Assembly: GCA_032358255.1 (NCBI GenBank)
Contig: JAULBX010027961.1
Location: 1 to 32,585 of the forward strand
Length of the DNA stretch: 32,585 nucleotides
Source: Heterotrichella gracilis
Taxonomy: Eukaryota; Sar; Xanthophyceae; Tribonematales; Xanthonemataceae
Reading direction: 5' to 3'
Below are positions 1 through 27,245 of this stretch, one piece after another; position 1 is the stretch's first letter; every line of letters starts with the position of its first letter. Made by a program: the position numbers and the translations under genes. A model generated the notes under the pieces. It saw only the letters and a program-made list of their open reading frames with translations. It was not told the origin of the DNA and did not search any database.

Positions 1-144
1 CCAGCACCAGCACCAGCACCAGCACCAGCACCAGCACCAGCACCAGCACCAGCACCAGCACCAGCACCAGCACCAGCGCCAGAACCCGCACCCGCACCAG
101 CACCAGCACCAGCACCAGCGCCAGAACCCACACCAGCTCCGCCA
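1..144 (+). repeat. CCAGCA hexanucleotide repeat coding a Pro-Ala linker
   Basis: A nearly perfect (CCAGCA)n run with a few CCAGCG, CCCGCA and CCAGAA variants. In the exon phase set by the donor at 147 it reads Pro-Ala throughout. It is the linker between the N-terminal part and the GRDP-like domain of copy A, and is cut by the window edge. On the opposite strand it gives a meaningless Leu-Val run. Confidence 0.9.
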
Positions 145-965
145 ATGTAAGTCTGATTGGGCTCTACATGATGCATGGCATGGTCCTTTATGTGTGAGCT
201 GCAAGGCGATGCATGTTTCTTCCATTTCTCCATTCGCCATGACATGAACCCCCTTGCTGCACCGCCTGCAGGACCCTAGACACCCTGCGCCAGTCCCTGC
301 TCCCCTTGGCCACCGGCCCCAGCCCCCACGCACGGGCCCTGCTGGTTCAAGACTACCTGCGCTTCATGCGGCTCAAGGCCCTGCACCCAGGCACCCGCCT
401 GTCACCGCCCAAGCGCGTAGACCAGCTGTGGCACCGCCACCTGGAGAGGGCAGATGAGTACGCAGCCATGGAGGCCCTGTTTGGCTGCTAGCTGATGCAC
501 TATGATCGCTTCACGGACCGTGAGGCCTGGCTGGGCAATGTGCTGCGCACGGCAACTCTGTACTTGGCCACTTTTCGGCTGAAGCCATCGCAGGACGTCT
601 GGGAGTTTGAGGCAGGGGTGCAGGTGCTGGATGTGCCTGTACCCGGCAGCAGCGCTGAGCGCACACGTGTGTATGCCTACCCCGACTGCACGGTGAACGA
701 CGTGCTGCAGCGCCTGGAGGCTGCTGTGCCTGCCCTGGCCAGCAAGTCATACCAGTTCAGCGCGGGCGGCGAGGTGCTTTGCGGCTGGCGGCGCGTCTCC
801 CGCTGCCCACCTGTGTCAGAATGGAGCGCAGCGGTGTATGTTGAGAGTGCAGCGGGCATGCGCAGGAGGAGCACATTTAGAGGTCATGAGTTGGATGTGG
901 TTGTGACGGACCAGCTGGGCAGTGTGATGCGCCGGCTGTGCCCGCTAGTGCACATCCCCATGCAG
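1..965 (+). pseudogene. Copy A: exons 2 (partial) and 3 of a GRDP-like/ubiquitin-like family gene, broken by an in-frame stop
   Basis: Two exons are visible. The first (1-146, continuing left of the window) is almost pure Pro-Ala and ends at a gtaagt donor in phase 2. The second (272-965) follows a tgcag acceptor and ends at ATGCAG|gtgcgc in phase 0. It has exactly the length of the matching exon of copy B (694 bases) and reads the same way: LLVQDYLRFMRLK, VDQLWHRHL, then a ubiquitin-like part with YPDCTVNDV and FSAGGEVLCG. At 489-491 a TAG interrupts the frame right after LFGC; copy C has CAG (Gln) and copy B has GAG (Glu) there, so a C-to-T change from Gln is the simplest origin. The frame is open on both sides of the stop, so decay is recent or the exon is skipped. 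No exon 4 follows before copy B starts. It may be the 5' part of one gene together with copy B. Confidence 0.65.
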
Positions 966-1429
966 GTGCGCAGTCACCACCATGCGCTTGGGTGGCACAC
1001 TCTCCACTCCACCACGTACCACAAGCATGCATGTTTTGCTGTGTGCCGTTTCCACAAACCCAAAAGCAGCTGCATGCCGTCATCCCCTTGCCTCCACTGC
1101 TAGTAGCCATTGGCACGTAATTGACTAATCAACCATGGATGTCAGCAATACACCCAAACCCAGTGCCACTCACCTGAACCATGGTGCCACAGCCAGTACG
1201 GTATTGGCAGTGTGTTTGCTACGCACACTCACCTTTTAACCAAGCAAAACCAGGCGCACACCAACCACAGCGCCACGGGCCCAGTGTCATGGCTGTCATG
1301 GCTGCATTCACTCCCGCAGTGTGTCTCTGTGGGCATGGTAAGACCCCACGGCGACTTGCACCACAACCATGACCACGAACAGCATGGCAGGCTATTCAAA
1401 ACCCCTTTCTCAACCCGTGTTGTGTGCAG
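966..1429 (+). other. Intron or spacer between copy A exon 3 and copy B exon 2
   Basis: A gtgcgc donor stands at 966 and a tgtgcag acceptor ends at 1429. I find neither the exon 4 (ubiquitin-like) that should close copy A nor the exon 1 that should open copy B. The flanking exons are both phase 0, so splicing across this gap would join the copies in frame. Confidence 0.5.
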
Positions 1430-3818
1430 GTGGCGGGACAGGAGAAAGTGAACTGGCAAATGGTTGTGCAAGCCATGCCTGCCTTCAGTGAAGCCGACTC
1501 CAGCATGGTACCAGGCCTTGCAGCCCGCCTGGCCACTGTGGGCCGACAAGCGTGTGTGGAAGGGTCGTTGCGTGTGTGCAGGCTGGTGCAGGGTGAGGCA
1601 GGTCAGGCAGGGACGTCAGGGAGGGTGTCGCCACAGGCACCCGCAGCAGCGGCACGACCACCAGCGCCACCGCCACCATCTGACGCGCCAGCAGCATTAG
1701 CACCAGCACCAGCACCAGCACCAGCACCAGCACCAGCACCAGCACCAGCACCAGCACCAGGACCAGCACCAGGGCCGGCACCAGGACCAGCACCAGGGCC
1801 GGCACCAGCACCAGCACCAGGGCCTGCGCCAGCACCAGCACCAGCAATGTAAGTCCTAGCGGGCTCTGCATGATGCATGGCGTGGTCCCTTTATGCTTGT
1901 GCTGCAAGACGATGCATGGCATGATCCCTTTATGCTTATGCTGCAAGACGATGCATGGCGTGATCCCTTTATGCTTATGCTGCAAAAAGATGCATGCGCT
2001 TCCATTTCTTCATTTGCCATGACTTGAATTCCCTTGCTGCATCGCTTGCAGGACCCTAGACACCCTGCGCCAGTCCCTGCTTCCCCTGGCCACTGGCCCC
2101 AGCCCCCATGCCCGGTCCCTGCTGGTCCAGGACTACCTGCGCTTCATGCGCCTCAAGGCAATGCACCCAGACACACGCCTGTCACCGCCCAAGCGCGTAG
2201 ACCAGCTGTGGCACCGCCACCTGGAGAGGGCGGGGGAGTACGCAGCCATGGAGGGTCTGTTTGGCTGCGAGCTTATGCACTATGATCCCTTCACAGACCG
2301 CAAGGCATGGCTGCGCAATGTGCTGTGCACCGCAACTTTACACCTGGCCACGTTTCAGCTGAAACCCAGGCAGGACATCTGGGAGTTTGAGGCAGGGGTA
2401 CAGGTGCTGGATGTGCCTGTACCCGGCAGCAGCGCTGAGCATGCATCCGTGTATGCCTACCCCGACTGCACGGTGAATGACGTGCTGCAGCGCCTGCAGG
2501 CCGCTGTGCCTGCGCTGGCCAGCAAGTCCTACCAGTTCAGCGCAGGCGGCGAGGTGCTGTGCGGCAGGCGGCGCATCTCCCGCTGCCCACCTGTGTCAGA
2601 GTGGAGCGCAGCGGTGTATGTAGAGAGTGCAAGTGGCACGCGCCGGACGATCTCGTTTGGCCATGATAAGTTGGATGTGGTTGTGACGGACCAGCTTGGG
2701 TGCGTGCTGCGCCGGCTCTGCCCACTGGTGAAAATCCCGATGCAGGTGCGCCGCCTTTGCCATGCATGGGTGACGCTCTGTCCATTTCCTACACATCGCA
2801 TCCTTGGCATTTTTTTAGGGTTCAGCATGTCGGCACTTATAGGGAATATTTGCCACCGTCATTGCGCTTGCATTGATTCTCTCCTAATGTCAGATGTTAT
2901 ACTGGGATTTCATATGTCATGCATCACCTCTGTCGCAAGACAATTTCCTGGCGCGGTTGTGGGCTACAGGGCATACTATGCATGCGATAACAGGGGTCAT
3001 GCAATAACAGCAAGTAGTGCCTCATGCCCGTGGCACTGTCTACTGGTGGTAGGCATGCGTTTGGTATTCATACCATTCCTTGACCATCCTACGTTCATAC
3101 ATGTTTTCGGGTCGCGTGCCAAAATGCATGACATGCTCTTTCCTCAATGCGCACGCTGCCAGTTAATAAGGCGTGTGAATGAATGCAGGACATGCGCTTT
3201 TTCAGCGTATCTTATACCGAAGGCCTGCAGCCCCTCCCTGCTGGGGGTGGCTTGCTCCATGAGTACATCAGCGTGGGTCGCTCTGAGCTTCCAGAGCTGC
3301 CAGTGACAGTCAACGTGTGCTTGGCGTACAGCGAGGCTGCACTTGAAGCCCTGCAGCTCACCCTTGATGAGGGTTCCACTGTCTCAGACCTGTTTGACGG
3401 GCTGGATGCGCAGCTGTCAGAGCACTCGAGCTTGAGAGTGGACCAGCTGTATGTGTGTGTGGCAGGGACCCGCTTTGACTACCCAGACTGGCGCAAGCAA
3501 AGCCCGATGTTGCTGGATGTGGGTGTGGGTGATGGGGGTGTGGTGGAGGTTTCAGAGCTGGCACATGGCGAGTGGCCATGTGGCTTACAGACTGTGTACA
3601 TTTTGGACCAGGCAGAAAAGGCGATGGTCCTCCGGGTGAAGCCTGACACAAGGGTGGGGGCACTTGTGGAGGCGTATTGCATGCGCAGAGGGGTCGATGA
3701 AGGTTTGATCAAATTCCTCTTTGAGGGTGTGCGGTTGCAACGTGATAGGAGCATTGGGTACTACAACATTGAAGACGGGGAGTGCATCAGAGCAATGCGA
3801 GAGCAGATGGGGTGCTAG
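1430..3818 (+). CDS. Copy B: GRDP-like domain plus multiple ubiquitin-like modules, SUMO-like C-terminus ending Gly-Cys (5' exon not seen)
   Basis: Exons 1430-1848, 2052-2745 and 3189-3818 join in phase (419 bases ending phase 2, then 694, then 630, stop TAG). Exon 2 gives a helical stretch with VNWQMVVQAMPAF, then a Pro-Ala linker. Exon 3 has LLVQDYLRF and VDQLWHRHL (2197-2223), followed by FGCELMHYDPF. This matches the pattern of the glycine-rich-domain-protein (GRDP/DUF1399) family: a VDxxWHxH motif, a Tyr, then Phe-Gly and a His. A ubiquitin-like segment follows (YPDCTVNDV to AAVYV). Another seems to straddle the exon 3/4 junction (LDVVVTDQL, IPMQ-DMRF). Exon 4 adds a third (LTLDEGSTVSDLF, LLDVGVGDGGVVEV) and a final SUMO-like one (3582-3815: LRVKPDTRVGALVEAYC, IKFLFEGVRL) ending REQMGC. 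SUMO normally ends EQTGG. The strand pattern and SUMO likeness are seen; binding or conjugation is not known. Exon 1, present in C and D, is missing here. Confidence 0.72.
1700..1848 (+). repeat. CCAGCA/CCAGGACCAGCACCAGGGCCG coding repeat (Pro-Ala/Gly linker)
   Basis: Hexanucleotide repeat at the end of copy B exon 2. The first half is pure CCAGCA. The second half alternates Pro-Ala with Pro-Gly through CCAGGA and CCAGGG variants, a sign of higher-order unit duplication. It codes a flexible linker. Confidence 0.9.
1872..1998 (+). repeat. 39-bp intronic minisatellite, three full units plus a partial
   Basis: Units start at 1872, 1911 and 1950 with GATGCATGGC; a partial one starts at 1989. Each unit continues with tGaTCCCTTTATGCTT and CTGCAA. 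The equivalent intron of copy A (147-271) holds only one such unit plus the partial one, so the array grew after the A/B duplication. Confidence 0.9.
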
Positions 3819-4453
3819 CAGACGCAAACCAAGTTTGCAGTGCAAGTATGGTATACACATCAAAACTCAGTTGCCAGCTCAGTTCCCAATCAGTGTTTTA
3901 TTGCCAACTTGCCCACATTTTTTCGTCTTTCCCCGCGTATTGGCGGTCCAGTTTTTAGCAGGGATGCTTCTTGACTCTTCTACAAAGATTGCAAGTTGAG
4001 CAATTCATATTGACCCAAATTGAATGCGCAACTATTACAATACGGTGTGTATTTCTTGCCCATTTTATATTAATGTGCAATCGCGCAGGAATGCGCTTTC
4101 TTGCCAAGGTACCGCTCAGTTGCAATTTGCCCGTGACAGCAACACACAGTGCAGTAATGGGTAGTACTACTGTAACAGTAAAACGGTTTCACAATGACAA
4201 TGCCATCAGCCGATGCTCGGCTTCAAGCCTTTCCTGCAATTACAACTGTTACAAGTAGCTCTGTATGCAGACAATAACGTGCCACCCGTGGTACCACAAC
4301 GAGCAGTGACTTCAAGCCTGCCAAAATCCAAACAAACTTCCGACCAGCCTAGCTGTTCTGTACCTCTTTCCCATGTTGTTTCTCATGTAACCCCCTACGG
4401 GTTTCATGAACATCAAGTTATTTAAACCTGATCAGACATGTCCATGCTATTAC
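3819..4453. other. Convergent intergenic region between copy B and the kelch gene
   Basis: AT-richer non-coding sequence between two genes that end towards each other. It should hold both 3' untranslated regions. I see no convincing gene, RNA or repeat. Confidence 0.6.
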
Positions 4454-7400
4454 TCAGGTGCCCCCCTTCTTCTTGAACAGCTTCCTGCACCTTTTCCTGC
4501 AGAACTTGGGCTTGCTGACCTCCACCCATGCACCCCCAAGGGTGTCGTACTCCCACACATCGTTCAGGTAGCAGCTCTTGGGTGCCTCGCCACCAAATAT
4601 CACAAACTTGTCGATGTTCACTGTGGAGTTGCCAATCTGCATAGCACACGCACTTGCTTTGGGTTTAGAGTATAGGGCCAATTGCATGGACCCGCGCGCC
4701 CTCATGTCAGGTTCAGCAATTATAGCAACATATGTTCATTCAGGGAGGGTAAAGGATTTACGTGAATCTGCACACGCGCTCACGCAGAACAGCCACCTGT
4801 GTAGTCATCCATTCGGTGCCTGTGTGACCATGCAAAGCAATGTGCACAGCCATGGGTATACCCCGCCACTAAGTGTGTGGCTTGTGGCTAGCACAGCCTG
4901 TAATTTGAAGGCTAGCCTGGTTGTGCAAGCATGATCTCAGATGCTGTATGCTAAACTGCGCTTGGATATTGATTAGTGGGGATAGGTGACGGTCATTGTA
5001 TGCTATCTTGCACAACGAATTCTCTCTCTATATACCCTTCCCCTCACACATGACAATGCAAAGGCACGCGCTCTAGCCTGCAGGAGCCAACACAGAACAG
5101 AAGCGGAAAGGCGGGAGCCTGCTGCCTGCTGCAGTTTGAAAATACCATAGGCGGATGCAGGGAGGGCAAGCCCTCACGAAGGGAACGACCAATGCTTGCT
5201 TCAGGATATAGGCATCTCGCCGGGGAAATAGAATAGGGCCCTTGCCATGGGGACTAGAAATGTACTTTTTTATTTACAGGTTTATGTCCTTTATTTGTTT
5301 TTAGGAGCCTGGGGTCCTTTTCTATTCCCCCTGTACTCCCATCACATTCCTCCTTGATACACAAACTGCACAATTCCTCACCTTGACTGGATCTGTGTAG
5401 CTGATGAAGCTGTGCAGGAATCGCGGCAGCGGCAGAGGGCTGTCCAGCGGCGCCTGGGGGTCCTCTAGTGGCCCCAGCTTGGTCCACATCTTTGCCAGGG
5501 GGTCAAATGACCAGAAGCAACCGAGGATGCTGCTGCTGAGGTGGGTGACGTTCTTCCCTCCCCTGCCACCTGGAAATATTACAGGCCCGCAAATTGAAAC
5601 CTGGACATGCCGATGACATGCGTTCTGAAGTTAGGCATGCATAGCAAATGCCCCCTTGCATAGATACACAGGGGAGATGCGTATGAAATTTGTTATCCTG
5701 AGAGAGCATCGCGTCCCGAAGCCACCAGACACAGGTATGGCTGCTTCCAATCAACCGGTTGGCTTTGTTTGGCTGCCTCACCCAAGCAGACAAGGACAGT
5801 TTTCTTTGGGCCCACCACCTACCCAATGTAGGCATTGCTGCGCCACCTAATTAGGACTTGAGCCAGGATCCGACTTTGGATTCTAAGTGCACCACCTGCA
5901 AAATGCTCAGGGTCCCATTTATCCTTGACTGCACCACCTACCAAATATGAGCAGGGTCCCATTCACAAAGGCCCCAGCGTGGTGGTCCCTGGGCGCCGGC
6001 ATGGGACCCTCCAGGGCGCTCCAGTCCTCCCACTCATGCGATTCCAGGTTGAATGCCCACACATCGGTGTGGTAGTCAGACTCATCCCTGCCCCCGTGCA
6101 CAAGCATGAAGGGGGGGGTGCCCGGGAATGTGGCCGCGATGTGACCCTTGCGGGGCCCAGGGCCCTTGGAGAGCAGGCCATTGGCTGCAAGGGAGGGCAG
6201 ACACATAGTGATATAATCTAAGCATTTACGTGCACAGCCTATATGGGGTGCAGCGGGTTGGAATCAGGGTGGATCGCAAACCCTACTGGGACCTTGCCTA
6301 GCTTTTGAACTCTTTCAGACGTACATGCTGACCCTGCAGCTCCCAAGATTTAGTATGAGCAGTAATGTGGGTCCAATAACCGCCATGCATGATGGACACA
6401 CATTTGTGTTCGTAATGGAATACTCCTCAGGAGTTTGTAGAGGCCGTTGCATTGGTATCACAGGAAACCTGCACTGTTCACATAAACCCAGACCATGCGC
6501 ATGGCACAGAAACCCTACCTGGGCCCTTCTTTGCGTTCCACAACTCTGTCCACACCACTCGACTGCCATCCAGCTTTGCCTCCCACACGTCGTTCAGCAG
6601 CTTCCCACTGCACAGGGATGGGTTTGGGGGGTTGGTGATCGACAGGTTTGGTGGCATGCGTCTTTTCAGAGGCCACGTTGGGAACCATGTACCAGCTGCA
6701 AGGATGGGCGACATCCCATCTGGTGGCAGCAAGGTGCTGATTGTGCTGAATGCTACAGCTGATTCAGCAGGACCCAGCTGGTGCGGAAGTCCACAGATGG
6801 TGGTGGAAGAAAGCAAGTTGAGCCCTACTTGGAGCACCAAAAACTCCATCTACTGACCACCATATCACCCAGATTCTCCTGCAAATTTCCTGCACCCCAC
6901 CTGGCCATTCTGCCTCCCATGATCACCATCCTCCACCCCCCATCTTTGGCCTGGTAGGTGGTGGCGCTGTGTGCGCGGCGGGGGGCAGGGGCGGCTGCAA
7001 GGGGAGTAATCACACACAGGTAAAGGAGTGATGATAAAGTAAGAGGGAGGAGCACGAGAGATGGCATGCACACAGGTGGCAGAGGAAACACGTACTCAGA
7101 TGAGGTGCAGCAACAGAGATGGTGAATGACGACCATATCATATTTCTTGTTGGAGCATGTAGGTAGGGCTACACACATGCATGCAAAAGGACCCTCACAC
7201 AGTACCAGCGCTTACCTTGGTTGAAACCCGCTCGTGCGTGCTGCCATTTCCACCCATCATTCACTTTCAGCTGCCAGGTGTCCTGCAGATAGTCCTGCCC
7301 ATTTGACGCCCCCTTGGGTGCTCCTGCTTTGGAGCCACTGGGTGGAGCAGGGACTGGCGGATCCTCCTGCATTTCCTGCAAAACTTGCTCCCCCTCACTG

Positions 7401-8352
7401 TCCTCATCATAATCATACAGCCCATTGTACGTGTAATCGTCGCTGGTGCCGTCGCCAGCAAAGATGATGATGTCATTGGTGACGGGGTCCACAGCGCCCA
7501 CTGTCTTCCACCTCGGCAAGGGTTTCCAAGCCCAGGTACTCCCCAGCCCCCCGTTTCCATCTCCCCCTCCTGCTCTCCCCAGCGCATGGTTTCCCCCAGC
7601 ACTGGTGTTGTCACTGAAAAGGACCTTGTCCCAGGTGGAGGCCTCAAAATCAAACAGGTAGATGTCGTCATACATGCTGATGCCAGTGGAGATGGCTGGC
7701 CGGCCGCTCCACACCACGAGGGTTTTGCGCACGACGCTGCTGTGGTTTGCAGGGTTCTGCTGGCTGCCGTTGAGTGGCGGTGGCTTGGTCCACACCACTG
7801 CGATGGTGGATGACTTGCGGCATTGGGGAACTCCTGACGCCACTCGAGTCGCAACATGCACTGCAGCAGGGGATAGGCCTTGCCTGGTTGATAATAGGCA
7901 AGGATCTGATTGCCAGGGTACATGTGAGAGTGTGGAAGTTGGGTTGGCCATGTGGCGCCCTTGTCATGTCATGCCATGCCACGCCAATGTCACACCAGAG
8001 CCATGCTGAGGTATAGTTGAGCCTGAAGGAGATCCCTTTTAAAACCCTGACTGACACCCCTGTACTCAAGAGCATTGAAACCGTGCACTCGCGGCTTCCT
8101 TGCAGTCATGCAAGCAGCACCGAGTACTCGCCAGACAAACCCTACCCAAGGGTTATTCCCTGCCCACCTGCGGAGTCGGGCCACAGCATGAAGCCCAGCG
8201 CGACGCCGCACACGCCCATCACTGCCAAGGTGATGACCCCAACCAGAGCACCGGGGGAGGAAAGGCATCGTGCACAGCGCCCTTGGGGAGGTGGGTAGCT
8301 TACCACGGGCTCCGGCGCCTCGTGACCCTCATCGGGGTTTTGCAGCAGCTGC
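4454..8352 (-). CDS. Kelch-repeat beta-propeller protein with N-terminal membrane anchor (first exon not found)
   Basis: Exons on the minus strand: 8352-8168, 7860-7216, 6994-6901, 6607-6519, 6184-5942, 5569-5382 and 4636-4454 (stop TGA). All joins keep phase (1,1,2,1,1,0). About 540 residues are visible. The first exon gives a Pro-rich stretch and one hydrophobic helix (GALVGVITLAVMGVCGVALG). The rest forms about six kelch units, shown by VVWSGR with DDIYLFDF, DIIIFAGDG with DTWQL, MVIMGGR with LLNDVWEAKL, FMLVHGGR with TDVWAFNL, LLIFGGRGG with FWSFDPLAKMW, and KFVIFGGE with NDVWEYD. Kelch propellers are protein-binding scaffolds, and six blades is a usual count. The protein ends in a Cys/Lys/Arg-rich tail (CRKRCRKLFKKK). 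The visible first exon starts in phase 2, so at least one 5' exon lies above 8352. Partner and role cannot be told. The helix suggests a membrane-anchored propeller; which side of the membrane it faces is inference. Confidence 0.82.
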
Positions 8353-8812
8353 CTGCAATAGGGGTGTGGGCAAGCTTGATGCTGCGGAATGCTTGAGCAC
8401 AAGGCAGAAACACAATGTACGATGTCATTGGATGTTAAGGTTTTGCTTGCTGGACTCGGCGTACAGCATAGAACCAACAGCGAGTGGACCTTCTATAGGA
8501 TCTAGGGTTATAGGGTTAGGGTGTGGTAGAGCTGGACGGGTATGCTGCAATGCTGTTACGAGAGGACATGCAGCCACTACACGCTTGTGCACCGCTGTGT
8601 AGCTACATAGTACACCAGCACCGTCTGTCAAGCAGCACCTGGCAGTTTCCAGCTAGCTAGCTGAAGCAGCTATGCCTGCTGGTTGCACAATCCCCAGATG
8701 TGCACTGATATCGATCCCCAATAATAATAATAAAGCCCAAAAAACTACTTGCAGCCGTCACACTATTCAAACAGTTCCTGGCGGACAAAGCGGCTGGCAC
8801 CACTCAAGTTGT

Positions 8813-8836
8813 ATGTCATATGCATGCATATGACAT
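8813..8836. repeat. 24-bp perfect palindrome
   Basis: Perfect dyad centred on TGCA|TGCA (8821-8828), arms ATGTCATATGCA and its complement. It lies some 460 bp upstream of the first visible kelch exon. Could be a binding site or a cruciform-prone repeat. Confidence 0.85.
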
Positions 8837-9397
8837 TGCGTTTGTCCATCAAGTACCAGGGTTGTTGCAGCAGAAAACCCCGCAAACAAAGTGGTACAGG
8901 TATAGTATATGTTGTCACTGCGACTCAGGACACTGCCCACTTACTCGGTTATCTCATTACTACCACTCGGCTGCCCAGCCATGGCGTAAATATGCGCTCA
9001 GGGGTATCTTCCCATGCAAACGTAGATAAAGTCTACTCTCTAGGCTTGTTTGGAGCTTGCTAGGCTGCCGTCGGCAGTGGCATGCGTGAGGCTAATCACT
9101 TGTGCTACGCTGTTCAAAAACCAGGAGCAGTGGGCTTGTCTGGCTGACCAGGGTTGGTTAAGGTCCACCACGTCAGCTGACTGTAGGCGGGGCTGCAGCA
9201 GAAAAAATGCAGATATGCCGCTTTGCAAGTTGCGTGTTTGTCTTTTCTGTCCATTTCTGACGTTCGTAACCACAGTAGCTTGCCCGGAGGCAATACCCTG
9301 GCTAAGGGTTACGAAACGTGCTTGCCACGGTGGGCTAACTTCAGTACTGTGTAAGCAAGTGAGCATGGCTACTAATCAAGTCCAGCGTGCAATATTT

Positions 9398-9439
9398 GGA
9401 GCTCATGTTGCTGGAGAGTTTGCCGGCAACATGAGCTCC
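9398..9439. repeat. Inverted repeat, 14-bp perfect arms
   Basis: GGAGCTCATGTTGC (9398-9411) and its exact reverse complement (9426-9439) are separated by 14 bases. Could fold as a hairpin or be the remnant of a small non-autonomous element. No T-run follows. Confidence 0.85.
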
Positions 9440-9466
9440 TGACAACACCACGCGACTAATTATAAC

Positions 9467-9482
9467 CTAGGAGCGCTCCTAG
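9467..9482. repeat. 16-bp perfect palindrome
   Basis: CTAGGAGCGCTCCTAG, only 27 bases after the preceding inverted repeat, which shares the GGAGC core. Confidence 0.85.
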
Positions 9483-10057
9483 CTAGTTGTATCCATAGGT
9501 GGTGATCGCAGGCAGTGTCCACAACTTGACCAGGCAATCAGAAGTGCTGGCATACAAGCTGGCATGCACACTAAGCAAGTACTTACAACAAAGCCACAGC
9601 AGGCCCATGCGCTGATAACACACAGTGTTAGAAATGGGTTTTGAAATACCCTGCACTCCAAATGGAAGGGCAATCCTGTTACAAATGCTCTGTAGTATCA
9701 AGAAGAGATTTCTTGGAATCAGATACACCGCAGGCAGGGTGGTTGGTAATGTGCCTGTATAGGAATTTCTGGGAAGAATGAATAACACTGACTTGGCTCT
9801 TAGCCCTTTCTGGAACCTGGTCTACTGTGTTGGGCGGTTTACATGTTGCTTACTAACTTGGGAAATCCGTGGGTTTATGTGATTGAAATCGAGCATTTGT
9901 AAAATCCGTGGGTGGACATCAGCACAACACCATCAGTGAGATAGATATAAGTACTGTTGTGTATACTAGACAAAGGCAGCAACGCTAAAGATCTCGTAAA
10001 AAGGTGAGTTGTTTTGTGGCTTCATGAAACCACTCTGCACTGCAACATTGTTGCCAT

Positions 10058-12661
10058 CTAGCACCCACTCATAGTGAGCAATGCATCAATGACCTCCCCG
10101 CCTTTGAACTGGTAATTGCCAATGGTCCTGTTGAAATCCAATTTTCCACATGCAAAGAGGAATTTCATTGAATTTATGTCAATTCTTCTCTTCTCGCAGT
10201 ACGCATGAAGCATAGCCCCCACCCTTGTGCTGGGCTTCACTCTGATTCTGACCTCAATGCCTTGCTGATCCCTGACACATACGACCATGGTGTCAGATTG
10301 CAGGTCATTACGTGGCAGCTCTGAAATCTCCACCACGCTGCCGTCAGTGACACCTACATCTAGCAGCAGCTGGCTGCTCTGGTGCAGGTCAGAGGGCTCC
10401 AATTGGGTACCTGCCACGCGCATGCACAACCTGTCCAAACTCCTGGTCAGAACATTACCCAGCTGGATAAAGAGGTCTGAGACTGTGGAATCTTCTCTGA
10501 GGATCAGCTGGAGGCCTTTGTATGCAGATTTGCTGTAGCAAATGTCAAGTGTGACCGCGAGCTCTGGGAGGTGAGAGAGGCTGACAAAGATGGTGTCATG
10601 TAGAAAAGTGCTGCCAGCAGGGAGAGGGAGGCGATCTGCACTGGTGAAGCACATGTCCTGCATGGAGACACATACTCAATCTGATTCAAGGAATGGCATC
10701 ATGAACTGGGAATCCACATGAGTTAAATATCCTACTACCAGAGTAGTGTGGGTTTTGGGATTTAGGGTTGAGCATGGCGAACACAATCGCAAGGGAGTTG
10801 TTGAATGTGGACACCCTCATGTGATGTAGGCGGTTAACAGTGCACTTGACTTCTTAATGAGTGCCTGCTATCACTCTATATACTGCTGGCATGAACACAC
10901 AGACACCTATCAAGGCTGTGACATGATAGTTTGGTATTACCCAGGCAATGGGGAGAGTGAGACGCATGCATGTTGGCGTGATAGCGCACCTGCATTGGGA
11001 TGTTCAGCAGTGGAGACAGCCGGCGCATCACACTCCCCAGCTGGTCCGTTGCAACTACATCCAGGGTCAGTACCTGCAAGCTTGCTGGCCTGAACGTAAT
11101 CCTTCTGCGCATGCCTGTCGCACTCTCGGCATATACCCCTGCAGTCCACTCTGCCACAGGTGGGCAGCGGGAGATGCGCCGCCTGCTGCACAGCACCTCG
11201 CCGCCTGCGCTGAACTGGTATGACTTGCTGGCCAGGGCAGGCACAGCAGCCTCCAGGCGCTGCAGCACGTCATTCACCGTGCAGTCAGGGTAGGCATACA
11301 CACGTGTGCGCTCAGCGCTTCTGCCTGGCTGCAGTAGGTCCAGCGTCTGCACCCCTGGCCCAAACTCCCAGATGTCCTGACTGGGCTCCACCTGGAACGT
11401 GGCCAGGTACAGAGTTGCAGTGCGCAGCACATTGCGCAGCCATGCCTTGCGGTCTGTGAAGGGATCATAGTGCACCAGCTGGCAGCCAAACAGACCCTCC
11501 ATGGCTGCGTACTCATCCTCCCTCTCCAGGTGGCGGTGCCACAGCTGGTCCACTAGCCAGGGCGGCGACAGGCGGGTGCCAGGGTGCATTGCCTTGAGTA
11601 GCATGAAGCGCAGGTAGTCCTGGACCAGCAGGGCCCGGGCGTGGGGGCTGGGACCGGTGGCTAGAGGGAGCAGAGACTGGCGCAGGGTGTCTAGGGTCCT
11701 GCAAGCGGTGCACCAAGGGGTTCATGTCATGGTGGCTGGAGAAAAAGAAACAACCCGCATCTTGCACTGTGACCTTGGTTGGAAACACAGCAATACAAAT
11801 TCCTGGCAGACTTACATACGCACTGGCGCAGGTGCTGGGGCGGTCGCTGGAGCTAGTGCTAGAGTTGGAGCTGACTCAAGTGCTGGCGCTGGCCCTGGAG
11901 CTGGTACTGGTGTGGGCGCAACCACAGGCATTGGTGCTGGTGTGGGCGCAACCACAGGCATTGGTGCTGGTGTGGGCGCAACCGCAGGCCTTGGTGCTGG
12001 CATCATCATGGGTGTGGCACCACTTGCGGGTTCAGCAGGCGATGTTGATTGCAGGCGGATAGCATTGTAACAGTCAATGACGTTTGCATCTCTGCATGTC
12101 ATGTGCACCTTGCTTGCTAGGTTGTCCAAGTGATTGCTGCTTATGGGCACAAATCCTGGCAGGTTTGACACCACTGCTTGCCAATCCACCTCGGTCTGTC
12201 CACTGCCCTGTGTGCAAACACCAACAAGTTGCCACCAGGCCATCACTTGAGTTGGGGAAAAGGTTGGGAGTTGGTTGATGACTACCATGCTAGATACATT
12301 ATTAGGCATGGAAATAGCTAAGACCAACTTGATCACAGATGAGGGACAGATGTACAGCTATCTTGCACTATTGCAACCCAGGCTGATACTAACATCATGT
12401 ACAATCATGCATGATGCAAGGAACTTCCCAAGTCTTGTGTGTTACCTCTGTACTTGGTTTGTGGCAGGCTGGGTTGGAAAGCAGCAATGAGAGGACCTCC
12501 GTCAGCTCATACTGAAGCCTGATGCCTGATACTGAGCTGGTTCTCACGTTCTTGAAGCGTAAACCTGCTGGGTGTCGTTTAAAGTAGAACTCTCGCAGCA
12601 GGTCACTGTGTTGCTGTGCCACTGCACCTGTTGGCAGCTGGGTATCACAAGACGCAGCCAT
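10058..12661 (-). CDS. Copy C: complete GRDP-like/multi-ubiquitin-like protein, SUMO-like C-terminus ending Gly-Cys
   Basis: Four exons on the minus strand: 12661-12446, 12207-11816, 11698-10990 and 10657-10058 (stop TAG). All are in phase and give 638 residues. This is the intact reference for the family. Exon 1 starts MAASCDTQL and holds a helical part (YELTEVLSLLLSNP). Exon 2 has VDWQAVVSNLPGF, then a Pro/Ala/Thr/Met linker with three decapeptide repeats. Exon 3 has LLVQDYLRF, VDQLWHRHL, FGCQLVHYDPF (GRDP/DUF1399-like), then a ubiquitin-like segment with YPDCTVNDV and FSAGGEVLC. It is five residues longer than in B, near RPASLQVL. Exon 4 has REDSTVSDLF, LLLDVGVTDGSVVEI and the SUMO-like end: VRIRVKPSTRVGAMLHAYC, MKFLFACGKL, then LLTMSGC. 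SUMO and Rad60/NIP45 SUMO-like domains share this RVK...AYC...FLF...G layout. A function in ubiquitin-like signalling is inference; no catalytic motif of an E1, E2, E3 or protease is visible. Confidence 0.8.
11911..12000 (-). repeat. Three 30-bp tandem units coding a decapeptide linker repeat
   Basis: Units 11911-11940, 11941-11970 and 11971-12000 are nearly identical. On the minus strand they code VVAPTPAPMP-type decapeptides in exon 2 of copy C. They replace the CCAGCA array found at the same place in copies A and B. Confidence 0.9.
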
Positions 12662-13436
12662 TATAGTACAAAACTGGACGGAAGCTCTTCAAAAACTCTA
12701 AACCGTGCTAACTGACACCCAGCCTGTAGAAAATAGCAGTGGCATGGCTTGCTGTTGGCCAGTTTCCACACGAAACAACAATTGCAGACGCCACGTATTG
12801 GTATTGGTACGGTCACTGTGGGTGATTTGAGGGTTCACAGTAAGGGCAAGTATGATTCTGGACGGTAATAGGTCTGTGCAACGAAATGTTTGAAACGTAC
12901 GCCGTTGCTAGTGAAATGGGTTTAACTATGGGAGGTGGGCACTATGTCCTGCATGCCTCGGGTCCGTGTTGACTGCCAAGATATTGATGCGTCATACGAG
13001 TGCAGTCTGTTGCACAGTGGCCTGCCAACGGTTTAAAACCGTCAGACCAACTATGAAGACAGTCACTGTAATTTTCAAAAAAGTTGTGGCAAATGACCAC
13101 CATGGCACCTATTTGTACCCTAGCCAAGGGTTTATGAGGCATGGCACAGTGCACAAAGCCATTGACTGCAGCAAGCATTGTCTGACACGACCTTGCGACA
13201 AATTTGTGCACCAAAGATTATATCAGCAATAAGGTGTATTACATGCAATACACTGCTCATGAAAGACACTAGTGCTGTGTAGCACTGCATGATGCCAGGC
13301 TAGCGTAAATTAAATCACAGTATCCATGTTACTAACGTGGAAAGCTGCACCAGCTTTTTACAAATGACCAAGAGCCCACAGATCCAAGCTATTGGCATGT
13401 GGTTACAGTATATCAGTGCAGACACCAACAGCACAA
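12662..13436. other. Upstream region of copy C
   Basis: Presumed promoter and 5' untranslated region of copy C (which reads left) and the 3' side of the open exon at 13437-13889. No repeats, RNA genes or convincing coding stretches seen. Confidence 0.5.
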
Positions 13437-13889
13437 TCACTGTGCAATATAATTGCAGGCTCTGGGAACATGAGCTGCAGCGCGTGACCCTTGCAGGAAA
13501 CACGCTTTCTGTTCTTTAACAAAAATACATAATAATGCAGGCATCTGGTGTCGCCCAACAATATGACAATGACTGCCTGTCACGGGGTAATAGTCAGTAC
13601 CCGTAGGAAAAAGACTATTTTCGTAAAACGTCACTGCACCTCCTGCATAATCCCAGATTGCTACATTATACTGGCTGTGGTGGAACTGCCAGCCTGGCGG
13701 CCCAGCAAGTTGCACCAATGGTGACCCAAGGGCTTGGAGATTGCTTTTATTTGTATCCTTGTGGCCAAAACTATCAAGGCGCAAATTATACATTTTGTAT
13801 ACACCATCATACACAATGTCCACAGTGCTGCTACCCTTCCCGAGGGTCATAAATTCCTTGCTACCACCCAAAACACACCCCTGCAGGTG
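13437..13889 (-). CDS. Unidentified open exon (possible 3' exon of an unknown gene)
   Basis: After an acctgcag acceptor ending at 13890, a frame on the minus strand stays open for about 150 codons to a TGA at 13437-13439. The first two thirds look like real protein: KEFMTLGKGSSTVDIVYDG, YKMYNLRLDSFG, PGWQFHHSQYNVAIWDYAGG, VTFYENSLFPTG. After that the composition turns random, so a donor (for example ACGG|gtactg) may end the exon earlier. I see no homology to the ubiquitin-like modules and do not recognise the fold. It lies just downstream of copy D on the same strand and could be a fragment of a separate gene or an alternative 3' exon of D. No 5' partner exon was found. Confidence 0.35.
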   Translation of the reverse strand, partial: HLQGCVLGGSKEFMTLGKGSSTVDIVYDGVYKMYNLRLDSFGHKDTNKSNLQALGSPLVQLAGPPGWQFHHSQYNVAIWDYAGGAVTFYENSLFPTGTDYYPVTGSHCHIVGRHQMPALLCIFVKEQKACFLQGSRAAAHVPRACNYIAQ

Positions 13890-14029
13890 CCACACAAGGC
13901 TGGCACACTAAAATGCCCAATTAGAATGCAATCCCACACGGTCTTCCAGAGTGGAACTTTCAAGGTAAATTCTGGCTTCTGAACAGCATTGATGTGCTGA
14001 CTGTGCTGCCCACCGCCCTGCACTTCCAG

Positions 14030-17000
14030 TTATAACTCTGCTTTGATGACATCACCATTGGACACTGCGTACCATGCCAAGCTGCGCAAGTCCTTCAACG
14101 TTATGCCATTCAACTTCAGGGTCATGTTATCCATTGGAAAACCACATTTAGCCAGTCCTTTCTTGATCGCGAGGACTGATGCTGAGCGCTGCAGACTGGT
14201 GTCAACATACTTAACTGTGTCGCCGATTTTGACATCAACCCTGATCCGGATGAAGGGTTCTGCATCCAGCTGGTCATACACCACGATCTGTCCACCTTCA
14301 AACACGCTGGAGTCCAGCAACAAACCGTCCCTTTCAGAACCCTCAAAGTTGTGGACTGCCATGCCACCAACTCGCACATACAGGTCTGCCAAAGGATCAC
14401 GGTGCAGAGCCACTGCAATCATGTTCCTCAAAGAACCCAGGGTTGACCCTTCATTCAGAGTGAGAATGAGGGTTTCATGAGGAAGGCTGCTTGCAAAGCA
14501 CACGTTCGCCATCACATGGAGGTCTGGAAGGGCGGCTGCATAAACAATTAGGCTGTCATGAATCAACAACCCATCAGCTGACACGTGTCGTCCTTCAGCT
14601 GTCCTGAATCGAATGTCCTGCATTTACAGCATATCAGCATCATAACTACTAGCAACTTATGTTGATGTATGCTGCATCATGCGGCTACTAAGTTAAATGC
14701 GGCAGCTAAAAACAGTATGAATATATAGCCCTAAATATCATATTATCATATACCAATTATTGCAATTGCTTTCTGCGCCTATCAACTCTGCAATGAGGCC
14801 TTGTGCAAGTTGCAAGAATAGTGTGCACATGTATCTTACCTGCATTGGTATGTGCATTCTGTCAGACAAGTGACTGAGAGCTGTGCCCAGCATGTCTGTC
14901 GCCGCAAGAGTGAATGCTGATGCCTCCAGGGAGAATTCCTTCAGAAACATCACTGGCTTGGGCAGATAATGCGCACTGGCAGGATACATCACTGCCGTCC
15001 AAAATGAAGCTGGCGATACCCTTGAAATACGTTTTGTGCCACATATTACTTCCCCTCCTGCGCTGTATTGGAACGATCTGCCGGCCAGCTGGGGCTGCAC
15101 CAGCTTGAGGCGCGCTATCACATCATTGACAGTGCACTCAGGGTAGGCAAACACGTGAGCTGGCTCCTCCCCGTCTGGAACTGGCATTGGGAGCACTTGC
15201 AGGGTTTCATCGAAATCCCAGATGTCTTGACAGGGCAGCTGACCAAATTGCGCCACATACATTGTTGCAGCTGCAAGCATAGCCTGCACCCATTGCTGGC
15301 GAGGTGCTGGCGGATGGTGGTACTCCAATTGACTGCTCAACAGCTGCTGCAATTCTGCGTATGCGGTGTCACCTTCCCAATGGGCGTGGAGCTCCCAAAC
15401 GGCTTGTACCTGTGCAGAGAGCACAGTGATAGGTTGTCAATGCAGATTATACACCTATTAAGAATGATATGTCATGTGACATGGGCATGCAAATTGCTGA
15501 TTGTCGCGTATTTGACCACAGCAAATTGTTTCAAGATGGACATGGCAAGGTAGTCCAGGGCACTGCAACTGTATATAATTGTATGGGGTCCAAAACACCA
15601 CGATAGCAGAAAGTTAATTAATGCACCTTCTTGGGAGGTGACAGCTGCAGTTGAGGATACTGCGTAACGAGCCACAGGAATCGCAGATATTCTTGGACCA
15701 GCAGCGCAGTGCTTCCATCGTCACAATTCCAGGCTGAGCGAATGATGACATACAGCTTCAGGCGCACATCGCTGAGGCTGATGATGCCTGCACACCAACG
15801 ATACTTGACATTGTCATCAACGCATTGCATCCCCGATAAAGGACGTAATAATACGCCCCCCTGCTATGGCATGTCCTGAAATGGACAACCAACTTGGTAA
15901 GCAAATAATTCCATATATTGATTAGACTCAGTTGATAGAGTCACCCTGTGTTACGGGAGGTTTACGCCACTGGCAGGAAAAATGTGTGGGCATTCACTCG
16001 GGAAATCATGTTGTCCATGCGTTCAGACTGGTTTACCTGGCATCCCGGCTTGCCTTTTACATGGAGCGGCTGCACACTTTTGAGAGATTCGAGTCCCAAG
16101 CATCATGCGCACCTGGTTCCATTGCAGCGTCGTCTTCCACAGCCGCTGGCGGTGTCTGTGCTGGCTGCACAATCCAGTCAGTGGGGCTCAAGGTGGCTGA
16201 CGGTGTGTTGTTTCGCTCTTCTGCAGCAGTCTCTGGCACCTCAATTTGCCCTGCACCCCAGTTGTGTATGTGTTGTGCCCAGGCTGTGAATTCGTGTGCA
16301 ATCATGCACAATCTTGATTGATGCTTATACGAAGTGTGGATGAGTCTGCTCCTGAAGAGGATACAGACTTTGCACTTTGCACTGGAAGATATTCAGTACC
16401 TGATCCACGTTGGCTAGGATACAAGGGCGTTGGTTGAGGATGGTCCCGCAGAGGTTCCTACCTAATGGGACCGCTGCAAGGGCCTGAGGCCTGCTGATGA
16501 CTTTGCTTGATGCGGAAGCTGCTGTAGCTGGCCGCCAGTGCTCAGGATCAAGGACCATTGCAAAGCATGCCAGCACGTCAGCGCCAGTGCAAGTCTTCGC
16601 CACTTGGCTGGCGATGTGCTTGATGGTACTATCATGTGCTGCATCATGCCATTCAAGGCCATCAAATTCAAATATGCAATTGACAACAAGCTCCCATTCC
16701 ACGGTGGCAACCTCATCATGACCTGCAAGCTGAAGAGAGCAATTGTGCTGTCAGTGGATTGCATGGTTTGACCTGCGCAGCACGCTGCAGGCAGCGACTG
16801 CAACTGCAAGTGGGACATGCAAACACAGTGTTACCTTTTTTCGCAGGCCTTGCATCAGACAGATGCGGTTATCAATATTCCAGTACATTTGATTGCAAGG
16901 GTTCAAACCATCCACCACACCATCCAAAGGTTCCATCCCCGTGACAGAGTGATTGCTAATAAATGGTCACGCTGTACATATCTATAGTCCATGCAAGGGT

Positions 17001-17234
17001 GGCAATGGAATGGAGGGCTGTTTCGAAGCTCACCCTGTGCACCCAGCTGGGGTGGGCCAGAAGGGTGGACAGCACGTCGCCAAGCTGGTACGTGTAACGA
17101 GCACCGTTGTATGTCAAGCTGCGTTGAATGGGGAACCTGTCTTTTGAACCAGAATGAATCCCGTAGTAGCTCTTGAGTAGGGAATTGCAGTCATCTGGGC
17201 TCTTAAATAGCGCTTGCTGATCTGAAGTGTCCAT
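14030..17234 (-). CDS. Copy D: divergent GRDP-like/multi-ubiquitin-like paralog without Pro-Ala linker or Gly-Cys end
   Basis: Six exons on the minus strand: 17234-17034, 16711-16462, 16283-16113, 15787-15627, 15409-14840 and 14617-14030 (stop TAA). All phases fit, giving 646 residues. Exon 1 (MDTSDQQALF, YQLGDVLSTLLAHPSW) aligns with exon 1 of C. Exon 2 (VEWELVV, HIASQVAKTCTGADVLACF) matches the WQxVV region. Exon 3 holds a Glu/Thr/Pro-rich linker instead of Pro-Ala. Exons 4 and 5 carry the GRDP-like part (LLVQEYLRFLWLV, SPPKK|VQAVWELHAHW, LEYHHPP), split by an intron absent from A-C exactly before the VDQLW-equivalent. Then come the ubiquitin-like segment (YPECTVNDV, FQYSAGGEVICG) and last exon (LTLNEGSTLGSL, LLLDSSVFEGGQIVVY). 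The final module keeps a beta-grasp look (RIRVDVKIGDTV, MTLKLNGITL) but ends KAEL, so the SUMO-like AYC...FLF pattern is gone. The exon 2 acceptor (gatgag|GTTGCC) is my best choice, not certain. Confidence 0.72.
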
Positions 17235-18336
17235 CAGTGCCTGTTGCATAGAAAACCAAGCCATTTAAATGGAGACTGGATAACGTGCTTTGATAAGTGT
17301 AGGCAACTTAGAGCAAGACAGTCACTCCTTCATGGCGCCGTCCAAGTCCACGCATTTAGCCATACTGAGGATTTTTTAGCATCAATCTTCCAGATAACAC
17401 TCATGAGGCCTCAAGGATCTACATGGGCTGTTGTCCTGTGTGTCGCAACTGGGCCATGACTCAGTGGGCCAACCCTAGTCTAGTCAAAATGAAGGATTCG
17501 CCCTTCCTTTCACATGACGTAGATTTCTCAAGTGGGTTCTTTGTGTAGAACTAAATTTAGCTACCAAGGCTGCATTACAAGTGTCAGGCGTGCTTGGAGC
17601 CAGCCAACTGCGCAGTTTGCCCGCCATGCCGAGCCATGCCAAGCCGGGGTGGGCCAGGGGTGGGGTGGCCAAATGCAGTGTACCTTACCAAGTTTAAACT
17701 GAGGCCACAATATATCGTCTGTTACAGCGTACTTGGCTTATTAGTGCAGTTAATTGCTCTGTTGCTCGGCCAGTACAGGTAGTGGATACCCCATTCAGTC
17801 ACGACCCATGTCCTGCAGATAACAGCTGGGAAGGTGTGCCAGTTGTGGTTGAGCATTGGAAAGCATTCCTCTGTCTTGCAGTATAGAAAACAGCCTTTCG
17901 TATAGAGAAGGCAGCCTTTACGAGGGGTTCACGGACTCGATTTCAAGTCTTGACAGCCCGAACCCTCCCCGTATCCAGTCACTGCAAATTTCCCTAATGC
18001 CCACTAATGCATGCATATCAAACCACGCCCGACGACGCCACCTATTCTTGTACTCTCTGCACCTTTCATGAACTGCAATACAAGACCTTATCTGCGCACC
18101 GTTTCTGTATGTGCATGAGAACGTGTGGGGGTCTCACACTGGCGCCACCCACCTTGCACACTCGCCCTCTGGCGGCACTCACCTGGGGCAGAGCAAGGGG
18201 TGCGCTCCTGGCAACGAAACAGCCTAGCCAGCTCACTAAAAGGCGACCAGCTGGTCTGATAAGGCACTGCTTTGTTTCCTGCACGGCAGCACCGCCCACC
18301 TGGGTTGACGAAGAAGGCAGTACTGAGGAGGGCAAC
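17235..18336. other. Divergent intergenic region between copy D and tRNase Z
   Basis: Both neighbours start away from here, so it should hold two promoters. The right part (18109-18336) is open in frame with the tRNase Z start and may code an organelle leader (see that gene). No other gene seen. Confidence 0.5.
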
Positions 18337-21300: not shown

Positions 21301-23508
21301 TGCTGCAACCACCTCTTCCCTTCCCAAATGCCGCTTTCTCTTACTTGATTACTGCGGGTCTATGCGCACTTGCCATGCCACCTTATTAACACCTTTGGCG
21401 TTCATCTCTTTTCCCTCCCACTCCCTCTGAGTAGGCCCCCTCCCCCTCCCACAGGAGCAAATGCCTGATGTGATGGCAGCCGCGCAGCTGGCAGTGTCAG
21501 CCGGGGCAGCGGATACCCTTCCGGAGTGTTTGCAGGGTTTGGGCAGGGAGGAGTTTGAGCTTGTGTTCCTGGGGACGGGAGCCGCGGTGCCTGCAAAATA
21601 CAGGAATGTGACGGGCACCTACCTGCATTTCTTCGAGAAGGGCGGCCTGATGGTGGACTGCGGTAGGTGCATATACCTAGTGAAATATACTAATAAAAAA
21701 ATTTAATTTTGACTGCATTTTCTAAAATGTATTTAGAGCCCTGTGAGGAAATGTGACAAGGCTTGACTCCCATGCACTCTGTTTGTCTATTTCAACACCG
21801 CAAAAGCTGGCGGATTTTTTATAAGGACATACAGGGAAAGCATGTGATTGTCGTTTCAGTAGCTAGCTTGTACCTAGGTGGCAGTATGTATGATGATCAC
21901 AATCCATGATGTTGCGCACAGTGTGTGACGGGCCACATGTGCCGCATGAGGTTGTGAAATTGGTACAACAAAAATGCAAGGAGAATGGCTGTGATAGTAG
22001 TTTGTTGGGCGCTTGCCTAATGGTACAAGCTAACCTCCCCATGCTTGGCCTCTACTACCAGTAAGCTTTTATGCCCCCACCACCCCCACAGGCGAGGGCT
22101 CCCTGGGCCAGCTCATCCGGCGCTACGGCTGGCCGGCCACGCAGCAGATTGTGCGCAACATGCGGTGCGTGTGGATCAGCCACATCCACGCCGACCACCA
22201 CGTGGGCCTGTCAAGGCTTCTGAGCGCGCGCAAGCAGCTGCTGGGGAGCGCATGCGACCCGCTGCTCGTCATTGGGCCGCGCCCGCTGAGGCGCGCGCTG
22301 CAGGTGGGTGTGGGTGTGGGTGGAGGGGCGCTGGGCTAGGGTGGTGTTTGTGAATGGGGGGTGTGTCCTTAGGGTGGCTGTTGGATTCTGATTGGTACAC
22401 AGTGGCGATCTGTGGCCACTTGGATGAACTATTTTTCTTTACAAAAGTCTGACATTATTCTGTCACAAGCATGTGGTTCGTAGGGCATTTCATGCTCAAG
22501 GGCACTTGCCGCCCCTTGACGCCTCACCACCTACTTCACTCACTTTCACATTTTAAATCCCCTCTCCGCGCGCGCGCACAGGCGTACACCCAGCTTGAGC
22601 CCATGTCCTTCCGCTACGTGGACTGCATCAACACAGTCCCCCTTGCTGGGGAGGAAACCCGGGAGGTGGATCCAGCCGTGACCAGCGCCGTGGAGGAGGT
22701 GAAGAAAACCCTAGGGTTGACGCGCCTGGAGAGCATCCCCGTGGTGCACTGCTCGCACTCCTTTGGGCTGGCGCTGGAGTCGGCCAAGGGGTGGAAAGTG
22801 GTGTTCTCGGGGGACACCAGGCCATGTGACGCGGTGGTGGAGGCGGCCAAGGGGGCCACGCTACTGGTCCACGAGGTGAGTTTAGGTTCAAAGGGGATTC
22901 GAGTAGCGTATCAAGCATGTTGGCAGGGAGGAAGGCGTGTTGGATGCTGTGCTGGTCATTGTAGGCCGTTCAGCTGGGATCCACGCTGTGTGCATTTAAG
23001 GACTGGGCAACCCCTAATCTTGCACTTGCCATCTGGAAAATTCCAGTGGCCACTCACACCTTGCCCAATGCTGCATTCAATGCGCGTAAAATTATCTGCT
23101 GTATCACAGGGGTGTGAGTCCTGCCTCAATGCACGCTTTGACTCAAATAGGATCGAATTTATTGAATTTACGTTCTAATTTCCCTCGACCTTGCCACTTG
23201 CACTGACCCCTGACCCGCCCCCGGCGCAGGCCACCTTTGAGGATGGCATGGTGGACGAGGCCATCGCCAAGAAGCACTGCACCACCACCGAGGCCATCAG
23301 CACCGCCGCGCGCGCAGGCGCCTTCCGCACCATCCTCACCCACTTCAGCCAGCGCTACCCCAAGATCCCGGTCATCGATGCGCACTTCGGCGACTCCACC
23401 TGCATCGCCTTTGACCTCATGTCGGTCAATATGGCTGACCTCCCCAGGCTCCCGCGCCTGGTTGCCCCCCTGGCGCTGCTGTTCAAGGAGGATAATGATG
23501 AGGAGTGA
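18337..23508 (+). CDS. tRNase Z, long form (tRNA 3'-processing endonuclease, ELAC2-type)
   Basis: Eleven exons: 18337-18399, 18607-18796, 19045-19200, 19535-19869, 20232-20463, 20629-20847, 21010-21164, 21455-21662, 22092-22303, 22582-22875 and 23230-23508 (TGA). They join in phase to 780 residues. The enzyme cuts the 3' trailer from tRNA precursors. The N-terminal half is the inactive metallo-beta-lactamase half of the long form (LFNAGEGFQRFC, LGVPRGPMYGLLK). The C-terminal half has the catalytic set: the PxKxRN loop (496-501), SHIHADHH with H550/H552/D554/H555, HCSHSFG (646-652), FSGDT with D668, and THFSQR with H726. All expected zinc ligands are present. Exon 4 inserts about 70 low-complexity residues with a basic PRAKRARVE run that could be a nuclear signal. 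The frame is open upstream to ATGs at 18109 and 18115, giving an Arg/Thr/Ala-rich leader that could be a transit peptide. One gene could thus serve two compartments; this is inference. Confidence 0.95.
20511..20533 (+). repeat. G-rich tract in tRNase Z intron 5
   Basis: Runs of five G separated by single A (GGA GGGGGA units). Meets the usual pattern for a G-quadruplex on the plus (transcript) strand, 48 bases downstream of the donor at 20464. Confidence 0.8.

Positions 23509-25018: not shown

Positions 25019-27245
<2,227 letters not shown>

Follow-up and report, generated by a model that had tools for sequence, protein, structure and literature searches.

Contig C544 (JAULBX010027961.1) of the Heterotrichella gracilis assembly GCA_032358255.1 was analysed over its whole length of 32,585 bp (the window). 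Within positions 1-17264 it carries a small gene family in whose gene models a domain with a W..H core (the WH domain) is joined, in several copies, to a SUMO-like C-terminal domain. The assembly spans 68.5 Mb in 903 contigs and contains 43 exon-level matches (53 candidates) to the chlorophyll a/b-binding family, as befits a photosynthetic eukaryote. A first-pass annotation of this DNA had described four paralogous units on both strands, and four mutually homologous exon-3 blocks were indeed recovered, A and B on the plus strand and C and D on the minus strand; with exon 3 of C as query, the E-values were 1.7e-127 for A, 1.5e-122 for B and 3.1e-43 for D. The inversion it had proposed is seen as inverted repeats of 631 and 627 nucleotides at 87% identity, its one broken copy is block A, with a TAG at 489-491, and its 638-residue protein is that of gene C, for which, as for D (605 residues), a complete model with GT..AG introns was obtained. 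The exons are listed below; UBL1, UBL2 and UBL3 are proposed beta-grasp segments, and E and F are further copies on a second contig, C193.

1-146, plus strand: unit A, end of exon 2 with Pro-Ala linker, the first 72 nucleotides being pure CCAGCA repeat (exon end by eye; repeat count).
272-965, plus strand: unit A, exon 3, with WH, UBL1 and the start of UBL2, interrupted by the TAG (homology, one TAG).
1430-1848, plus strand: unit B, exon 2, with N-terminal segment and Pro-Ala linker (translation, splice sites; match to F exon 2, E-value 6.3e-15).
2052-2745, plus strand: unit B, exon 3, with WH, UBL1 and the start of UBL2 (homology, gene model).
3189-3818, plus strand: unit B, exon 4, with the remainder of UBL2, the UBL3 segment and a SUMO-like C-terminus ending MREQMGC, no GG (Pfam Rad60-SLD).
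10058-10657, minus strand: gene C, exon 4, with the remainder of UBL2, the UBL3 segment and a SUMO-like C-terminus ending LLTMSGC, no GG (Pfam Rad60-SLD).
10990-11698, minus strand: gene C, exon 3, with WH, UBL1 and the start of UBL2 (homology, gene model).
11145-11301, minus strand: UBL1 tract in gene C, 94% identical to copy E (alignment to C193:77875-78031; permutation test).
11816-12207, minus strand: gene C, exon 2, with N-terminal segment and Pro-Ala linker (gene model).
12446-12661, minus strand: gene C, exon 1, start codon at 12661 (gene model; match to F exon 1, E-value 1.4e-7).
14030-14617, minus strand: gene D, exon 4, with a divergent C-terminal domain ending KAEL (Pfam ubiquitin, E-value 6.2e-5, below cut-off).
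14840-15409, minus strand: gene D, exon 3b, with most of WH, UBL1 and the start of UBL2 (homology).
15627-15787, minus strand: gene D, exon 3a, with the start of WH (50-53% likeness to B, E and A over 29-34 residues, E-values 0.08-0.13).
16462-16729, minus strand: gene D, exon 2, no Pro-Ala linker, the 3' end being a chosen splice site (open frame, candidate GT sites, in-frame join; match to F exon 2, E-value 0.010).
17034-17264, minus strand: gene D, exon 1, start codon at 17264 (match to F exon 1, E-value 7.5e-7).

Gene C (12661-10058, minus strand) has four exons and gene D (17264-14030, minus strand) has five, exon 3 of D being split by an intron absent from A, B, C and E. Unit B comprises exons 2-4 (1430-3818, plus strand), whereas unit A, which the contig end truncates, has only the last part of exon 2 followed by exon 3 (1-965). 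An exon 4 for A was not found between A exon 3 and B, nor was an acceptable exon 1 for B in the 464-nucleotide gap between A and B, which gave traces of 20 residues against C exon 1 (E-value 0.027) and of 10 residues against F exon 1 (0.074). The family reaches contig C193, where copy E (C193:77482-79215) has exons 3 and 4 only, neither exon 1 nor exon 2 being found in the 2,481 nucleotides searched upstream (best E-value 0.15), and where a stretch on the plus strand near the contig end can be read as exons 1 and 2 of unit F. N-terminal queries from C and D gave weak matches near this same end (E-values 0.02 and 0.008, respectively). Exon 1 is homologous among F, C and D, and exon 2 of F matches its counterparts in B, C (E-value 6.2e-6) and D. 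The single layout that had been ascribed to all units does not extend to A, B and E with their missing exons, and D carries the extra intron; likewise, the four blocks do lie within the 17 kb that had been given for the family, but copies are also present on C193. The cluster is a real, constrained local gene family, in which exon order and splice sites are retained and codons are under constraint. The intron after B exon 2 also contains three tandem copies of a 39-nucleotide-spaced unit (1872-1996), and a fourth, weaker copy lies in A at 169-215.

The WH domain was compared with known families by profile and sequence searches. Against an alignment of 11 bacterial WHxH sequences, hhalign gave 94.5-96.3% over 81 columns (E-value 1.8e-9 for the match at 96.3%), with a score of 55.4 against a shuffled maximum of 19.8, and none of 60 column shuffles did as well. 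The hhalign profiles used throughout held 2-11 sequences, and 20 reversed-profile comparisons, run beside 20 forward ones, never exceeded 0.6%; the column shuffles, done 60 times in each of six comparisons, provide a lenient control. A single Pedobacter WHxH protein searched against the whole genome found B (E-value 1.2e-5), A (6.1e-5) and C (1.7e-4). In contrast, PF07173, the DUF1399 domain of GRDP-like proteins, matched none of the five pieces scanned, one per copy (A to its stop, D exon 3b only), at E-values up to 10, and across the whole genome it matched only contig C835 (70.8 bits; two candidates scored). These comparisons support, at the level of sequence, a WH domain that is a distant relative of the bacterial WHxH family and lies outside PF07173. 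The Pfam check that the first-pass annotation had suggested for PF07173 thus came out negative. The fusion it had described is supported in the form of a WH..H domain, GRDP-like in kind, joined to a SUMO-like C-terminus, which Pfam recognises in B, C and E.

The bacterial WHxH family is represented by 10 loci, the majority of them named as Bacteroidota, together with two viral-contig records, and has the same domain by profile comparison. Its members retain WHxHILDT..Y..DC and HHYPYFG. The full WHxH is found in three of the five copies of the present family, and DC and HHYP in none; by eye, the HH is reduced to one H in A, B and C, reads HHPP in D and is gone in E. The VDxLWHxH motif by which the domain had been defined is present in A, B and C, but D has VQAVWELHAH and E has LEQLWRHHAN, and W..H is common to all five. 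GRDP-like proteins such as AtGRDP1 and AtGRDP2 also have the W..H core, and this genome's GRDP frame, on C835, reads IELMWRAHM. AtGRDP2 consists of DUF1399, an RNP-1 motif and a glycine-rich region (PMC4299439); neither of the latter two was seen by eye in the window copies.

Several further sequences came up in these searches. A weak exon-3 match on contig C47 resembles, by eye, a protein of the F-box type and was regarded as a chance hit. Exon 3 of C also found a WHxH member on contig C100 (E-value 0.014); this reads as a bacterial contaminant carrying a WHxH gene close to Bacteroidota proteins, and was set aside. A further WHxH frame, on contig C435, shares 65% identity with the Pedobacter protein. 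In the viral-contig record IMGVR_UViG_3300017700_000784 (3190-6017), a WHxH protein with a Ser/Cys-rich tail is flanked, by eye, by a TerC-like gene on one side and two TerD-like genes on the other, and in IMGVR_UViG_3300009177_000030 (3848-4414) one with a His/Cys/Gly-rich tail lies beside ABC-transporter-like genes.

At the other end of the protein, Rad60-SLD (PF11976) was matched above its 23.8-bit cut-off by the C-terminal domains of B (43.8 bits, E-value 2.2e-11), C (46.3 bits, 3.8e-12) and E (48.6 bits, 7.5e-13), and that of E also matches Pfam ubiquitin (2.2e-14). Against four sequences of SUMO type from this genome (two on C527, and one each on C663 and C311), the domain scored 99.2% in hhalign (E-value 6.1e-20), and C exon 4 matched a solved SUMO chain (2.8e-10). 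Gly-Gly, the ending that conjugation requires, is missing from all four copies that have exon 4; their last residues are GC in B and C, EL in D and VD in E. SUMO frames on C527 and C663 do carry the GG, and C527:7627-9994 holds two of them in tandem, both ending VGGN. A separate Rad60-SLD match on C311 may be this genome's protein of the Rad60/NIP45 type.

Three to four beta-grasp segments had been proposed for each protein; judged from sequence, one of the four is firm (the C-terminal domain), two are suggestive (UBL1 and UBL2) and one, UBL3, is unsupported. When D is compared with the other copies, UBL1 is the best-conserved module. It shows a weak likeness to SAP18 (PF06487), which has a ubiquitin-like fold (PMC11784288): Pfam E-values were 0.053-0.078 for B and 0.28 for A, all below cut-off, with none for C, D or E, and a weak hhalign match of 15.9% scored 22.2, compared with a maximum of 15.0 in 60 shuffles. 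The two align over 33 columns, VYAYPDCTVNDV with IYTWPDASLKEL. UBL2, which spans the exon 3/4 junction, gave weak hhalign matches of 5.5% to ubiquitin and 2.0% to SUMO, the ubiquitin score being 18.0 against a shuffled maximum of 13.1. Searches of PDB sequences with C exon 3 and with the exon-3 alignment returned nothing up to an E-value of 10, and six pieces had no NCBIfam match.

For a measure of selection, Ka/Ks was calculated by the NG86 method with Jukes-Cantor correction in 36 pair-by-region comparisons. Ka/Ks was 0.12-0.57 in 29 of these, as averages over whole segments from which single selected sites could escape, and Ks was saturated in the other seven, all of which involve D or E. 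This range weighs against diversifying selection. Silent divergence differed sharply between segments of the same pair of copies: Ks between B and C was 0.28 in WH and 0.25 in UBL1, against 0.81 in the first part of UBL2 (UBL2a) and 0.92 in exon 4, and between B and E it was 0.85 in WH and 0.34 in UBL1 and saturated in UBL2a and exon 4. Copy E is close to A, B and C in UBL1 only (Ks 0.29, 0.34 and 0.43, respectively; 0.70-0.85 in WH). A permutation test on silent codons detected an excess-identity tract in A-E (P = 0.0025), B-E (0.0005), C-E (0.0005) and B-C (0.0020), and none in the other six of the 10 pairs, including A-B and A-C (P = 0.12-0.66); the same sequences recur from pair to pair, so the tests are not independent. 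In the pairs with E the tract spans UBL1 with, at the most, a small part of WH, but in B-C it also takes in much of WH; within UBL1, a 157-bp stretch of C aligns with E at 94% identity (see list above). The simplest account is that UBL1 has probably been homogenised between copies by interlocus gene conversion. Third-position guanine plus cytosine (GC) content lies at 0.75-0.81 for WH and UBL1 in A, B and C, higher than in exon 4 of B and C (0.58-0.66) and in D (0.42-0.58), a pattern that GC-biased conversion would produce. The contrast is weaker in E (UBL1 0.72, UBL3 0.70, WH 0.68), where UBL3 is about as GC-rich as UBL1, so that high GC does not single out the tract in all copies. It is also conceivable, though improbable, that silent sites in UBL1 diverge little because selection acts there on the DNA or RNA itself, and not because of gene conversion. 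The module is under strong constraint, because the amino acids of UBL1 in D are conserved (54-56% in comparisons with A, B and E, and 48% with C) while DNA identity is lacking. However, synonymous sites in UBL1 of D are near saturation (proportion of synonymous differences 0.68-0.76), which excludes a general constraint on silent sites, and the UBL1 tracts have bounds.

The two contigs probably adjoin in the genome. C193 ends in 72 nucleotides of pure CCAGCA, and the window starts with 72 nucleotides of the identical repeat, on the same strand and in the same linker; the region C193:80001-83007 holds this contig end, with the repeat in the orientation of the window start. Because F has no 3' part, A has no 5' part, and repeat, linker and strand are the same at both contig ends, we take F and A to be a single unit divided by a gap in the assembly, with A probably its 3' portion. 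It may be that F, A and B belong to one gene whose exon 2-3 block has been duplicated, since the end of F exon 1, the end of A exon 3 and the start of B exon 2 are all in phase 0 as read from the gene models, A has no exon 4 and B has no recognisable exon 1. Splicing of F exon 1 to B exon 2 would then preserve the frame and bypass the TAG. Alternatively, exon 1 of B may have decayed, leaving only the traces described above. A reading of A as simply a dead gene copy was dropped in favour of this proposed single-gene arrangement.

What such proteins might do is suggested by the RENi family (Rad60, Esc2, NIP45), multi-domain proteins in which a C-terminal SUMO-like domain without the double glycine follows a low-complexity stretch and is reported to act non-covalently (PMC549199); SLD2 of all three interacts with Ubc9 (PMC2946365). 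Given this precedent, we propose, with a probability of roughly 0.4, that the cluster encodes SUMO-mimic scaffold proteins that cannot be conjugated and that form a small family expanded by local duplication. The C-terminal domain would dock non-covalently on the SUMO machinery (a Ubc9-type E2, or SUMO-reading partners) in the manner of Rad60, Esc2 and NIP45, UBL1 would be the dock for a partner common to all copies, and the Pro-Ala linker would act as a spacer. The WH domain would be a binding module and not an enzyme, because several residues conserved in the bacterial family are gone. The copies would have arisen by local duplication and inversion, followed by homogenisation of UBL1. The family resembles RENi in its C-terminal domain in B, C and E, but differs in that its N-terminal side consists of conserved exons and WH, not of low complexity alone, and in that its other proposed beta-grasp segments bear little or no likeness to SUMO; no WH domain is described for RENi in the available text of the same account (PMC549199). 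An elaborated form, in which a lineage-specific array of SUMO-mimic adaptors keeps UBL1 uniform by short-tract conversion while WH, the N-terminus and the SUMO-like C-terminus drift, so that different readers would share a common dock and the exon 2-3 duplication with its stop would add a splice-controlled form, seems to us rather doubtful.

Several observations weigh against the scaffold proposal. The C-terminal domain of D matches ubiquitin only, at 23.1 bits against a cut-off of 25.4, and shows no Rad60-SLD match, so the SUMO-like role may not apply to all copies. UBL1 shows no likeness to the ubiquitin and SUMO profiles (0.1% and 0.3% in hhalign), the lead of UBL2 over its shuffles is small for SUMO (15.6 against a maximum of 15.5), and UBL3 finds no support as a beta-grasp segment, since 10 and eight of 60 shuffles did as well as its scores of 11.6 for SUMO and 10.9 for ubiquitin. 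The whole-genome search with the Pedobacter protein found neither D nor E. In B and C a basic run resembling strand 2 is followed by Pro (RVKP); a possibly equivalent Pro of Rad60 SLD2, P351, is among the residues obscuring the cleft that would hold a SUMO-interacting motif, and SLD2 of Rad60 is also reported to have a role apart from Ubc9 (PMC2946365).

There are also rival explanations. The family could be an ordinary, widespread algal one, GRDP-like plus SUMO-like, that was duplicated locally and has a housekeeping function, either in protein quality control or in chromatin. This is a serious contender, though we would give it less than even odds: every computable Ka/Ks comparison indicates constraint, splice sites are conserved, both parent families are also present as separate genes in the genome, and proteins that join WH..H to a SUMO-like domain may well be present in other algae. 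On the other hand, none of 18 candidate relatives of exon 3 was confirmed in a viral collection (viral_contigs) and none of 15 in a prokaryotic one (genome_contigs). SUMO-like domain relatives were likewise not confirmed in viral_contigs (none of 46 candidates). The fusion was also not found in the literature on DUF1399/GRDP-like proteins and Rad60-SLD, among the matches listed by title and start of abstract, which does not show it to be undescribed, and no literature pairing Rad60-SLD with an alga was found.

The local increase in copies, the inversion, the broken block and the variation of the linker from copy to copy had earlier suggested a role in defence or self-recognition, with selection driving the copies apart. 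This role now appears distinctly unlikely, as no computable comparison departs from the Ka/Ks range given above, the rest being saturated, UBL1 is homogenised rather than diversified, and Pfam scans of the family pieces revealed no defence domain. PADLOC gave one weak match among eight pieces, Cmr5 on the SUMO-like part of B exon 4 (E-value 0.00018), which we take as chance, and none at 0.01 for the other seven. Least probable of all, to a degree that makes it hardly credible, is that these exons are cargo or remains of a mobile element that spread them. Copies do occur on two contigs and both strands, a SUMO-like domain is reported inside giant Gypsy elements of planarians (PMC6431247), and Rad60-SLD is among the domains in fungal host-transposon fusions (PMC10799480). 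Against this, introns are retained and codons constrained, the spread of copies is local given that C193 and C544 are probably neighbours, and no transposon domain was found by Pfam in the 20 window pieces scanned (of 106 frames of at least 100 residues), terminal repeats not having been looked for.

The window also carries unrelated genes. Kelch-repeat frames lie between units B and C (5919-7963, minus strand), one piece of which matches PF24681 (E-value 2.2e-14). An FMN oxidoreductase (PF00724, 4.1e-32) and a cytochrome P450 (PF00067, 1.2e-18), the latter resembling CYP51 by eye, occupy 24950-27245 and 31508-31894. Frames at 22021-23508 look by eye like a tRNase Z-type metallo-beta-lactamase, although two scanned pieces had no Pfam match at 0.01.

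The main points of interest are the fusion and the short conversion tract. Should other algae have the fusion, the family would be unremarkable, albeit with a good local duplication. Were the fusion borne out at the protein level, it would provide a protein with a SUMO-like domain outside the Rad60/NIP45 layout, and WH..H, a domain of unknown function, would gain a testable partner in the SUMO pathway. The short conversion tract, for its part, would offer a handy case of duplicated genes holding one module alike while others diverge.

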